A stretch of 64,000 nt of DNA from an uncultured Clostridia bacterium (lineage in GTDB: Bacteria; Bacillota; Clostridia; UMGS1883), in the NCBI GenBank assembly GCA_947626145.1, contig CANQRB010000001.1, positions 310,001 to 374,000 on the forward strand, written 5' to 3'. Positions 14,756 to 42,753 of this stretch are shown here, in pieces. The translations under genes and the position numbers were made by a program. Below the pieces are notes generated by a model. The model searched no databases and was not told the DNA's origin. It saw nothing but the letters and a program-made list of their open reading frames with translations. Position 1 is the first letter of the stretch, and each line of letters starts with the position of its first letter.

Positions 14756-16212
14756 AAAAGAAATTTGTTCCAAAAAAGCTTATCTCACTGCTGCTGACGT
14801 TTACCATGCTGACAGTGCCGGCCTTCGCGGAGGATGAAGCGGCCGTCACCGAGGAAAAACCGGAGATCTCCGTTTTCCGTCAGGAAAGCATAATTCGGGA
14901 ATACGCCCATACTCTTGCGGACAACTACTATTACGGCGCCACCGATCAGAATATTTTATATAACGTGATTTGTGCCACCATCGAAAACGGCGGAGTGTTC
15001 GACCTTGACAACGCGCTCAAGGCCATGGTGATTTCGTTAAACGACGAATATGGCGAATATTACAGCCCTGAGTCCTTTGACAAGCAGGCCGAATATTACA
15101 ATTCCGAATTTTTCGGTATTGGCGCTATACTCACGGTTCAGAACGGCGGCACCGTTATAGACACCATATATTCCGGCAGCGCCGCTGAGATTGCCGGTCT
15201 TCAGGTGGGCGACAGAATTGTGTCCGTGGACGGAACAGACACTTCCAATATGCCCCCGGCCGAAACCCGTGAGCTTTTGGTGGGTCAAGAGGGCACTGCC
15301 GTTGACATAACCGTCCTTCGGGGCGAAGACGATTTTATTTCCGTCAGAGCGGTTCGTCAGCTTGTGAAAGAGAGTCATTCAAACATGACGGTTCTTGACA
15401 ACGGAGTCGCCGTCATCGACGTGGACTCCTTTACGGAGTCGCTTGCCGACGAATTTGACGGCTATCTCGAGGAAATAGCGTCAAAGGATATTCAAAAGGT
15501 GATTATCGACCTGCGCAACAACGGCGGCGGAGAGATAAACGCCGCCATAGCGGTGGCGCAGAAGCTCATTTCCGCCGGTGTTATCGGCAAACTTAAATAC
15601 AAGAATGAGGCCAACAATCAAAACATTTACTCCGAAAACCTCAACGCTCCCCGGTTTGACCTGCTCGTGCTTACCAACAAAATGACGGCGTCGGCCAGCG
15701 AATTCCTGGCAATGGCCCTCCAGAGCCGAGGCAGGGCAAAGCTCCTCGGTGAAAAGACCTACGGCAAGGGCTGTATGCAGGCTATGTTCCGCACGCCCAC
15801 CGGAAGCGGCCTTAAGTTTACCATCGGTGAATTTTTCTCTCCCGACGACGAGCGCATACACACCGTGGGACTTACGCCGGACATAGAGGTCAGCAATATC
15901 GTCATTCCCGTGGACGAAAGTACCTTTGCGGAAATAACACTGGACAAGCTCAACCTGCCGGCTTCAAAAAAAGGTATAGAACAGCGGCTCAACGCTATCG
16001 GCCTGCTGCCGGACAGCGCCGTTGACGGATACTATGACAGCCAAACCGAGGCCGCGGTACGGGTATTCCAGGAGAACAGCCGTCTCGAGGTCACGGGCAA
16101 GGTTGACTTCTACACCGCGTTATACCTCAATGACCGGGGCTATGACGACCTGTCAAAGGTGATTGACGTACAGATGGAAAAGGCCCTGGAATACTTCGAT
16201 TCAATTAATTAA
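14752..16212 (+). CDS. S41 family (CtpA-like) C-terminal processing peptidase
   Basis: A 486-aa secreted protease. A signal peptide ends near AFA at residue 25. A PDZ domain spans about 110-190 (AEIAGLQVGDRIVSVDG). The S41 catalytic domain follows, with TASASEFLAMAL (nucleophile Ser) and GEKTYGKG (general-base Lys). A C-terminal peptidoglycan-binding domain (about 415-470) contains AVRVFQENSRLEVTG. Such enzymes cleave extracytoplasmic proteins at the C-terminus, often in cell-wall or sporulation control. It overlaps the ArgRS-like gene by 4 nt and ends the murI cluster. Confidence 0.9.
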   Translation: MKKKFVPKKLISLLLTFTMLTVPAFAEDEAAVTEEKPEISVFRQESIIREYAHTLADNYYYGATDQNILYNVICATIENGGVFDLDNALKAMVISLNDEYGEYYSPESFDKQAEYYNSEFFGIGAILTVQNGGTVIDTIYSGSAAEIAGLQVGDRIVSVDGTDTSNMPPAETRELLVGQEGTAVDITVLRGEDDFISVRAVRQLVKESHSNMTVLDNGVAVIDVDSFTESLADEFDGYLEEIASKDIQKVIIDLRNNGGGEINAAIAVAQKLISAGVIGKLKYKNEANNQNIYSENLNAPRFDLLVLTNKMTASASEFLAMALQSRGRAKLLGEKTYGKGCMQAMFRTPTGSGLKFTIGEFFSPDDERIHTVGLTPDIEVSNIVIPVDESTFAEITLDKLNLPASKKGIEQRLNAIGLLPDSAVDGYYDSQTEAAVRVFQENSRLEVTGKVDFYTALYLNDRGYDDLSKVIDVQMEKALEYFDSIN

Positions 16213-16231
16213 AAAATTTTGACAAAACCTA

Positions 16232-16260
16232 TTGACAAATATATAAAAATCGTGTAAAAT
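16232..16260 (+). promoter_or_regulatory. Sigma-A promoter of the pot operon
   Basis: TTGACA (16232-16237), 17-bp spacer, TAAAAT (16255-16260). A second TTGACA lies at 16219-16224. The start site would be near 16267, giving a leader of about 325 nt. Confidence 0.8.
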
Positions 16261-16272
16261 ATCACTTGATAA

Positions 16273-16324
16273 AAAACGGTACGAGTGGCGGATTTACGTG
16301 CATAGTCCACCATAGTACCGTTTT
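16273..16324 (+). promoter_or_regulatory. Promoter-proximal hairpin with T-rich tail in the potA leader
   Basis: AAAACGGTAC (16273-16282) pairs perfectly with GTACCGTTTT (16315-16324), and GTGG/CCAC pair inside. The 3' arm ends in TTTT and continues ATTTATTTCATTTT. It begins a few bases after the predicted start site, so it could act as an attenuator. Confidence 0.5.
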
Positions 16325-16334
16325 ATTTATTTCA

Positions 16335-16541
16335 TTTTGCGGTTTTTTCTTGGGCAATACCGCACAGAGATTGTGCCCGTATTGCGCCGCAGATTTTTTG
16401 ACGGAATTACGAAAACGACGCAGGAATACTGTCGTATTTCAAGGAGTTTTCGTAAGAAACGTCGGAAAAGATGCAAGCAAGATGGGTGCAAAGCTCACAA
16501 GCGGTCTTTGTGTGGTATTGCCCTTGTATTTTACCGCAAAA
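16335..16541 (+). repeat. 207-bp inverted-repeat element (MITE-like or structured leader RNA)
   Basis: The ends form a 27-28 bp imperfect inverted repeat: TTTTGCGGT (16335-16343) with ACCGCAAAA (16533-16541), then after an 8-9 nt unmatched block GGGCAATACC (16352-16361) with GGTATTGCCC (16514-16523). Inside are GCACA/TGTGC (16362-16376), a 10-bp stem TTACGAAAAC/GTTTTCGTAA (16407-16416, 16446-16455) and CACAA/TTGTG (16496-16512). The left arm can alternatively pair locally with GTATTGC (16379-16385). Short frames across it lack ribosome sites. No target duplication is obvious. Confidence 0.6.
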
Positions 16542-16591
16542 AATCGTTCTGGGCAGGTATGCCCTGCAAAATTTAAAGGGGTGACGCGGTT

Positions 16592-18085
16592 GTGAAGGAC
16601 AACAAAAACATCATTATCGAGCTGAAAAACGTTTCAAAACACTATGGCCAGACCTATGCGGTGGAAGATTTTAATCTTTACGTGAAAAAGGGTGAGTTTA
16701 TTACCTTTCTGGGGCCTTCCGGCTGCGGAAAGACCACCACTCTGCGCATGATAGCGGGCTTTGAAATGCCCACCGCCGGCGAGATACTGCTGAACGGCAA
16801 AGACATTACCTCTCTCCCGCCTTATCAGCGGCCCGTCAACACGGTGTTTCAAAGGTACGCGCTTTTCCCGCATCTGGATGTGTATGACAACATAGCTTTC
16901 GGCCTCAAGCTGAAAAAAATTGACGACGGCGGACGGATGAGGAAGCTCACCACAAAGGAAATAAGTGAAAAGGTGAGGGCGGCCCTGAAAATCGTGGATC
17001 TGGAAGAATACGAGGACAGGGACATCGCCACGCTCAGCGGCGGACAGCAGCAGAGAATAGCCATCGCCCGGGCCATCGTCAACGAACCGGAGATACTTCT
17101 GCTGGACGAGCCTCTTGGCGCACTGGATCTGAAAATGCGGAAGGATATGCAGCTGGAACTGAAGGAAATGCACAAAAAGCTGGGTATAACCTTCATTTAT
17201 GTGACCCACGATCAGGAGGAGGCCCTGACGCTCTCCGACACCATTGTGGTTATGAAAGACGGAATGATTCAGCAGATAGGCACGCCGGAGGGAATTTACA
17301 ATGAGCCGGCCAACGCCTTTGTGGCGGACTTCATCGGCGAAAGCAACATCTACAGCGGAACAATGATAGACCGGCTCAAGGTGCGCTTTCTGGGTCATGT
17401 GTTCGACGCGTTGGACGAATTTGACAAAAACGAAAAAGTTGACGTGGTCGTCCGCCCCGAGGACGTTAAGCTTGTGCCCCCCGGACAAGGTATGCTGGAC
17501 GGCAAGCTCATCGACAAAATATTCAAGGGCATACACTACGAGTATACTCTCATGGTTGGCCACACCGAGGTAATCATTCAGGACACCCGCAATATGGAGG
17601 TCAACTGTGACGCTGGCATCATAATAGAGCCTGACGGCATCCACATCATGAAAAAGGAATTTACCGCCAACATCTATGACGACGCATACATAGACAAAAA
17701 CAACAATGTAGTAATTTCCGACTTCGCATTCCCCTGTGATGTGACAAAGCTTGTGCCCGGCTCGACACTTGACGGCGACGGCTATGTTATCGGCCCGGAC
17801 GGCACGGTCTATGACTTCACCGACGCGGACGTGAAGGTTACCATCGGCCTGGGTGATATTGAAATAATGGACAATATCGACGAAAGCACCGCCTGGGGCA
17901 ATATCGTGGAGAATATATACAAGGGCGACCACTATATGGTGACCGTCCGTACACAGCAGGACGAGGATTTTATTCTCGACACGGTATACACTTATGACGC
18001 CGGAGATCAGGTGGGCATAAGGGTAAAGCCCGAGCTCATCAGTCTGGCGCTCAAGGGGGAGGCCAAGAAATATGCGAAAAAATAG
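16592..18085 (+). CDS. potA: Spermidine/putrescine ABC transporter ATP-binding protein (extended)
   Basis: ATPase of the polyamine importer. Walker A GPSGCGKT is at residues 41-48, the Q-loop FQRYALFPH at about 89, the signature LSGGQQQR near 147, Walker B ILLLDEP near 168 and the H-loop YVTHDQEEA near 205. Residues 250-360 are TOBE-like. At 497 aa the protein is about 120 residues longer than usual: a further beta-rich segment ends in a second TOBE-like stretch, IRVKPELISLAL. The start is GTG 16592 after AAAGGGGTGA. The following potB start lies inside its 3' end. Confidence 0.92.
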   Translation: MKDNKNIIIELKNVSKHYGQTYAVEDFNLYVKKGEFITFLGPSGCGKTTTLRMIAGFEMPTAGEILLNGKDITSLPPYQRPVNTVFQRYALFPHLDVYDNIAFGLKLKKIDDGGRMRKLTTKEISEKVRAALKIVDLEEYEDRDIATLSGGQQQRIAIARAIVNEPEILLLDEPLGALDLKMRKDMQLELKEMHKKLGITFIYVTHDQEEALTLSDTIVVMKDGMIQQIGTPEGIYNEPANAFVADFIGESNIYSGTMIDRLKVRFLGHVFDALDEFDKNEKVDVVVRPEDVKLVPPGQGMLDGKLIDKIFKGIHYEYTLMVGHTEVIIQDTRNMEVNCDAGIIIEPDGIHIMKKEFTANIYDDAYIDKNNNVVISDFAFPCDVTKLVPGSTLDGDGYVIGPDGTVYDFTDADVKVTIGLGDIEIMDNIDESTAWGNIVENIYKGDHYMVTVRTQQDEDFILDTVYTYDAGDQVGIRVKPELISLALKGEAKKYAKK

Positions 18086-41679: not shown

Positions 41680-42753
41680 TTATTCCTCCATTCCGCCCCG
41701 CAGCTTTTCACTCTGGAAATAGGTGTTGAGGGCGTCAATAATTTCATCCAGATCGCCGTTCATTATGGCTTCTATCTTGTAAAGTGTCAGATTGATCCGA
41801 TGGTCGCTGACCCGTCCCTGCGGGAAGTTATAGGTGCGGATGCGCTCGCTGCGGTCACCGCTGCCAACCTGACTTTTTCTCTCCCGGCTTATCTCCTCGT
41901 TCCGCTGACTCTCCATCATTTCGTAGAGGCGGCTACGGAGAACCTTCATGGCCTTGTCCTTGTTTTTGAACTGGCTCTTTTCGTCCTGACAGGTGACGAC
42001 GAGGCCGGTTGGCAGATGAGTTATGCGAACGGCGGAATCGGTGGTATTTACGCACTGACCCCCCGGCCCGCCCGCCCGATAGACGTCTATTTTCAGGTCG
42101 TTGGGATTTATTTCGACCTCGACCTCCTCCATCTCGGGCAATACCGCAACCGTAGCGGCGCTGGTCTGGATCCGGCCGCTGGACTCGGTCTCAGGCACGC
42201 GCTGAACCCGATGAACGCCGCTTTCATATTTCAGACGGCTATAGGCTCCCGCTCCCTCAACAGAAAAGGTTATTTCTTTATATCCGCCCAAATCGGTAGG
42301 ATTGGAGTTAAGTATCTCTATTTTCCACCGGCGGCCGTCGGCGTACATGGAGTACATACGGAAGAGCTCCCCCGCGAACAGGGCGGCCTCTTCCCCGCCC
42401 GTGCCGCTGCGTATTTCCATTATAACCGACTTTTCATCATTGGGATCCTTCGGAATGAGCAGTATTTTCAACTCCTCCTCGATGCCGGGCAGCTTTTCCC
42501 TCGCCTCATCGATTTCCGCACGGAGCAGCTCCTCAAAATCCTTGTCCGGCTTTTCGGCCAGCATTTCCTTCGCATCCTCGATGGCTTTGTTGGCGGCTTT
42601 GTATTCGCCGTATTTTTCGACAATGGGGGTCAGATCGCTGTGTTCCTTCATAAGCTTACGCCAGCTGTCCTGATCCGCTATGACGGACGGATCGCTGATC
42701 TGGCGGCCCAGCTCCTCATATCTGTCAACTATCAGGTCTAATTTACTGAACAT
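41680..42753 (-). CDS. prfA: Peptide chain release factor 1
   Basis: Recognises UAA/UAG and triggers peptide release. The 357-aa protein has the GGQ loop in [14 protein letters not shown] near residue 230 and class I release-factor sequence [10 protein letters not shown] and GRIQTSA around the tripeptide-anticodon domain. ATG 42753 is chosen because AGGTGA precedes it; an open frame extends upstream into ispA but gives a non-family N-terminus. Confidence 0.96.

Follow-up and report, generated by a model that had tools for sequence, protein, structure and literature searches.

ERIC (enterobacterial repetitive intergenic consensus) and YPAL elements, which are dispersed and 100 to 200 bp in length, fold back on themselves and are transcribed into long hairpins (PMC2229807), and the Correia or NEMIS elements of Neisseria are MITEs that lie inside transcripts and give rise to hairpin RNA with regulatory effects (PMC10969869). 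Here, we describe an element in the leader of a potABCD polyamine transporter operon that is short, dispersed, and foldback like ERIC and YPAL and that, like Correia/NEMIS, is a MITE probably carried within a transcript. However, ERIC and YPAL have other ends and hosts, with ERIC termini of TA, whereas the present family duplicates mostly TTAA and has an identifiable IS5 partner. The ends and host of Correia/NEMIS also differ from those of the pot MITE, and RNase III processing is known for Correia. IS5-family insertion sequences (NF033581 type; L132 of Anaerotruncus colihominis and L318) share the MITE ends GGCAAYACCGCA and its 4-bp TTAA duplication; they measure about 1.14 kb and encode a DDE transposase of ~325 amino acids, whereas the MITE carries no gene and has an unrelated foldback interior. 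A literature search found no publication naming this MITE family. With respect to leader RNAs of polyamine genes, to which the pot leader belongs, a spermidine riboswitch (a SAM-I variant) is found upstream of genes for polyamine biosynthesis in Gram-positive bacteria of other genera (PMC10853860).

The window analyzed here is a 64,000-nucleotide stretch of a contig from an uncultured Clostridia bacterium of the gut. A sigma-70 type promoter of the pot operon, detected by consensus scan (TTGACA, 17 nt, TAAAAT; 16232 to 16260, + strand), precedes a potA-like polyamine ABC transporter ATPase gene (16592 to 18085, + strand; NCBIfam TIGR01187 above cutoff), the first of potABCD; PotB-, PotC-, and PotD-like genes follow, with scores below the equivalog cutoffs. 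Between promoter and potA, the first-pass annotation had placed a 207-bp inverted-repeat element (16335 to 16541), which it took for either a MITE or a regulatory RNA. This placement was correct, and the described arms were all present; the promoter is kept at the orthologous sites of six sister species. The outer arms TTTTGCGGT (16335 to 16343) and ACCGCAAAA (16533 to 16541) match exactly over 9 bp; the next arms, beginning GGGCAATACC (16352 to 16370, with 16505 to 16523), are 89% complementary over 19 nt, the outermost 10 bp being exact; and the inner arms TTACGAAAAC (16407 to 16416) and GTTTTCGTAA (16446 to 16455) form 10 exact base pairs. On the evidence of arms, fold, and family covariation, the inner arms delimit an apical stem-loop (16407 to 16455, + strand; inner GGAATAC-TGTC-GTATTTC). 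The 207-bp interval folds as one long hairpin at −102.3 kcal/mol, compared to −52.9 ± 4.2 kcal/mol for shuffled sequences (z = −11.7; 0 of 200 shuffles).

The unit that is repeated in the genome has different boundaries. A search of the own genome with 16260 to 16595 returned seven full copies, comprising the locus and six others at 93 to 96% identity, plus fragments. When aligned, the genome copies have 170 bp in common, from GGCAATACCGCACARAGA to TCTTTGTGCGGTATTGCC, corresponding to 16353 to 16522, and nothing in common outside. We therefore place the MITE, to which no strand is assigned, at 16353 to 16522 rather than at the earlier 16335 to 16541, with genome copies, alignment, flanks, and family fold all agreeing on a foldback over the whole length. 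Its terminal inverted repeats are 18 bp long: the left, GGCAATACCGCACAGAGA (16353 to 16370, + strand), was defined by arm and end comparison, and the right, GGCAATACCACACAAAGA (16505 to 16522, − strand), by end comparison, with one mismatch to the consensus. CTTG flanks the MITE on either side (16349 to 16352 and 16523 to 16526, both + strand), and copy alignment and flanks identify these tetramers as the left and right copies of the target site duplication. At 170 bp and without a transposase gene, the element is below the upper size of about 300 bp for a MITE. The sole listed + strand open reading frame of at least 80 amino acids that runs through it (16266 to 16595; 109 amino acids, TTG start) depends on the insertion, which is absent in sister species.

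We next asked how consistently the copies are flanked by duplications. Only four of the seven own-genome copies had perfect ones. Among 111 distinct copies of 140 to 200 bp, identical 4-mers flanked 89, and the 4-mer was TTAA in 77 of these 89. TTAA was on neither side of 19 copies, of which 12 still had identical flanks (TTTA, TTAG, ATAA, CTTG, TCAA, and TTGT); a few of these copies are probably shared orthologous insertions. Because flanks are identical in these copies even where TTAA is absent, they represent a true 4-bp duplication and not a longer terminal repeat. Two insertions occupy apparently orthologous sites in the own genome and in the sister species G007 (L004 and L097; L003 and L094); given the same flanks, they would predate the split of the two species.

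One sister species carries dozens of MITE copies. In this species, G007, whose PotA is the most similar (95% identity), there are 66 forward and 66 reverse occurrences of the end motif, and nearly all end motifs are paired 170 to 171 bp apart (40 stretches fetched). Homologues extend across Ruminococcus and other Clostridia, with TTAA duplications at most of them. A pattern scan with TTAAGGCAATACCGCACA yielded at least 119 stretches, and Ruminococcus, Oscillospiraceae, and other Clostridia were among the matches listed. Copies in other genera are mostly 150 to 290 bp long (170 to 172 bp being commonest) and share these ends and TTAA. The fold is widespread, whereas the exact apical motif has a narrow distribution, being found in only 5 of the 391 class genomes. 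Another type of MITE, 157 bp long, combines these ends and a TTAA duplication with an unrelated interior (L113, 946 to 1102, in G153; L202, 4218 to 4374), which suggests that several MITE lineages share the IS5 group. Within the window, a weak end-like match near 42138 to 42148 was discarded as a single motif without a partner.

Comparison with sister species separated the MITE from the host leader. In the potA upstream regions of all six sister species, which were read and aligned, no MITE was present at the pot position. G007 reads TTTTGCGGGATCTGTTTTTTCCCGCAGAAAATCG where the window has TTTTGCGGTTTTTTCTTG, the MITE, and CTTGTATTTTACCGCAAAAAATCG; in the remaining sister species, the corresponding site forms a hairpin from different stem sequences, for example, TTTTGGACG/CGTTCAAAA, TTTTGAGGCGG/CCGCTTCGAAAA, and TTTTGAGCCG/CGGCTCGAAAA. 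Since the hairpin exists without the MITE, the outer 9-bp arms constitute the stem of an older host leader hairpin with the MITE in its loop. The 5′ arm of this hairpin 2 (16335 to 16343, + strand) was assigned from the MITE-free orthologue and five other species, and the 3′ arm, on the far side of the MITE (16533 to 16541, + strand), from the orthologous leaders. The 27- to 28-bp terminal repeat of the first-pass annotation therefore consists of arms that do exist but is a composite, in which the 9-bp host stem and the 19-nt MITE ends are aligned, and the long inverted repeat at the pot leader is a chance composite of MITE and older hairpin. A further host hairpin, hairpin 3 (GGGCAGGTATGCCC; 16551 to 16564, + strand), was recognized by inspection of the orthologous leaders, where pairing is retained in sister species despite a different stem sequence.

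In the predicted leader fold with the MITE, hairpin 3 and an upstream host hairpin, R1, are retained and hairpin 2 is lengthened; a scan of the pot leader region detected no intrinsic terminator. Given the conserved promoter upstream, co-transcription with potABCD is expected, and the MITE should be transcribed within the pot mRNA. The simplest reading appears to be a tolerated insertion in the pot leader, with a possible effect on pot mRNA stability by analogy with Correia and ERIC. Other insertions were seen nearby in relatives: an independent MITE in G007 (L075, 10743 to 10912, flanked by TTAA at both ends) occupies a TTAA ~19 bp before the −35 hexamer of the G007 pot promoter, and a decayed mini-copy lies upstream of the pot promoter in G001 (L273). 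These two observations indicate that the pot upstream region was struck more than once.

The empty orthologous sites largely refute the proposal that the 207-bp hairpin is a riboswitch-like regulatory RNA of the pot operon, in which the left arm would alternate between local and long-range pairing. Its position behind a conserved promoter, its very stable fold, and the strong covariation in the element family are what such an RNA would display, and the alternative pairing does exist: GCAATAC (16355 to 16361) can pair either with GTATTGC at 16379 to 16385 (+ strand) or with GTATTGC at 16515 to 16521. However, the local site is a direct repeat of the distal one and is missing from most diverged copies, which makes a switch unlikely. 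Moreover, the MITE that makes up most of the hairpin is absent before potA in the sister species, the same sequence occurs at unrelated loci, and no Rfam 15 match above chance was found in 15500 to 17500. An Rfam search of ten loci with diverged copies returned nothing relevant, with a single T-box in L142 lying outside the element. We consider this function of the 207-bp hairpin very improbable. Of the two identities first proposed, the MITE is thus upheld by seven full copies, 4-bp duplications at several of them, and six empty sister sites, and the regulatory RNA survives as a plausible proposal only for the host hairpins of the leader, in particular R1.

The direct repeats also offer a relation to shorter derivatives. 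The two GTATTGC repeats are spaced 136 bp apart, and a deletion between them would leave exactly the 34-bp mini-element, two versions of which are present in G007 (GGCAATACCGCACAGAGATTGTGCCCRTATTGCC). These ends are also common on very short versions: of 28 counted at 25 to 50 bp, 15 are flanked by TTAA at both ends. TTAA-flanked ultrashort palindromes of 31 to 46 bp with the same ends were seen at L077, L079, and other loci.

Dispersed copies had been proposed as the mark of a MITE, and single conserved copies before potA with covariation as that of a regulatory RNA. The dispersed copies did point to a MITE, but the alternatives were not exclusive, since these copies covary strongly too. Diverged family copies, at about 70 to 80% identity, keep the fold via many compensatory changes. 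Across 22 aligned representatives and 66 pairs, with related copies counted as independent, 95.0% of cells were paired (80.6% in shuffled alignments), changes on both sides occurred in 41 of the 66 pairs (23.2 shuffled), and the covariation score was 0.432 (0.168 shuffled); none of 500 shuffles attained any of five fold measures. Sliding the partners by 1 to 3 columns destroyed the covariation signal. Pairing was also retained, with CG/GC swaps, in a 10-nt side hairpin found on the 3′ arm only (columns 145 to 154), and the C-G pair closing the apical loop was invariant in the 22 copies.

The conservation of this imperfect fold could mean selection on the folded form. We tentatively propose that this very widespread IS5-linked family, with its ~66 pairs, one-sided hairpin, and fixed closing pair, is kept because the folded nucleic acid works, whether it is an RNA within transcripts that undergoes processing or shields the host's message or a hairpin of single-stranded DNA used in transposition. 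However, strand-switching in replication allows either arm of an imperfect palindrome to be corrected to match its partner, and this can mimic covariation. The covariation that would befit a riboswitch was found, but on dispersed mobile copies where such correction could produce the signal, and the counts treat related copies as independent; for both reasons, covariation is no proof of RNA function. Selection on the fold itself, whether in transcribed RNA or in single-stranded DNA, and whether for processing or for rendering insertions harmless, accordingly seems to us possible but doubtful. It would account for the double changes, the excess of paired cells over all shuffles, the retained one-sided hairpin, and the invariant pair, and it would allow the pot copy to alter mRNA stability in the manner of Correia/NEMIS and ERIC. 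Precedents are the cleavage of Correia RNA by RNase III (PMC10969869) and the effects of ERIC on transcripts (PMC2229807).

Autonomous relatives place the family within a known group. In Anaerotruncus colihominis DSM 17241 (L132, 555 to 1701), the ends GGCAATACCGCACAGAA and GGCAACACCGCAGAA bound an element of 1147 bp that is flanked by TTAA at both ends and encodes a 325-amino-acid transposase (NCBIfam NF033581, IS5 family, E = 6 × 10−97; Pfam DDE_Tnp_1, E = 2 × 10−32). Viral contigs carry relatives at 66 to 78% identity. The one in L318 is complete, at about 1136 bp, with GGCAACACCGCA ends and a flanking TTAA at each. The same ends also occur in L317 and L320, which support the link in part. 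The MITE and these insertion sequences have their ends in common and little of the interior. Ends and duplication shared with the two complete autonomous elements assign the MITE, at the level of sequence, to the IS5 group. Together with the boundaries, the duplication, the copies, and the empty sister-species sites, these relatives lead us to read 16353 to 16522 as a nonautonomous MITE of an IS5-family insertion sequence group, with a probability of roughly 0.95. An autonomous partner in the same genome is usual for such a MITE, though not a requirement. A search for DDE_Tnp_1 (PF01609) genes was negative for the own genome, for six sister genomes, and for two further carriers, all incomplete drafts, and a protein search of sampled genus members, likewise draft assemblies, returned no relative of the Anaerotruncus transposase. 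Seven distant transposase relatives among the 391 class genomes were set aside, none having these ends. Movement was probably in trans by an IS5 transposase and may be past in the own species.

These data suggest the following model. An IS5-family DDE transposase acting in trans would recognize the ~18-bp ends and insert the MITE at a 4-bp target, mostly TTAA and here CTTG, which would be duplicated. The pot copy would have landed in the loop of the leader hairpin, so that leader stem and MITE ends line up. The insert may have been tolerated because it extends an existing hairpin and adds no recognizable terminator, and it may change mRNA stability or leader folding.

If the pot operon is regulated through its leader, R1 (16277 to 16322, + strand), which lies outside the MITE, is a better candidate than the MITE. 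In an alignment of seven species of the genus, its near-invariant core TGGCGG..T..CGTGCATAGTC is kept while the surroundings have diverged. The consensus fold consists of three stacked stems with the loop NNCGTGCAT; its covariation is weak, a double change being seen in 1 of 16 pairs. In the class sample, exact matches to the core are confined to the genus, with one per genome and always before potA; two single-mismatch matches outside the genus were in unrelated, apparently coding sequence and were dismissed as chance. R1 is unlike the SAM-I-variant spermidine riboswitch (PMC10853860), and the R1 leader matched neither SAM-I nor any other Rfam family. We conjecture that it is a polyamine-responsive element.

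This locus illustrates how a hairpin of the host and an inserted mobile element can merge into an apparent single regulatory structure, and separating the MITE reveals a conserved, undescribed leader hairpin before the pot operon. The analysis further delineates a large family of MITEs in gut and rumen Clostridia and the IS5 partners that belong to it. Its dozens of copies in a single species and its deep structural covariation make the family well suited to testing whether MITE folds are under selection or are maintained by palindrome correction.
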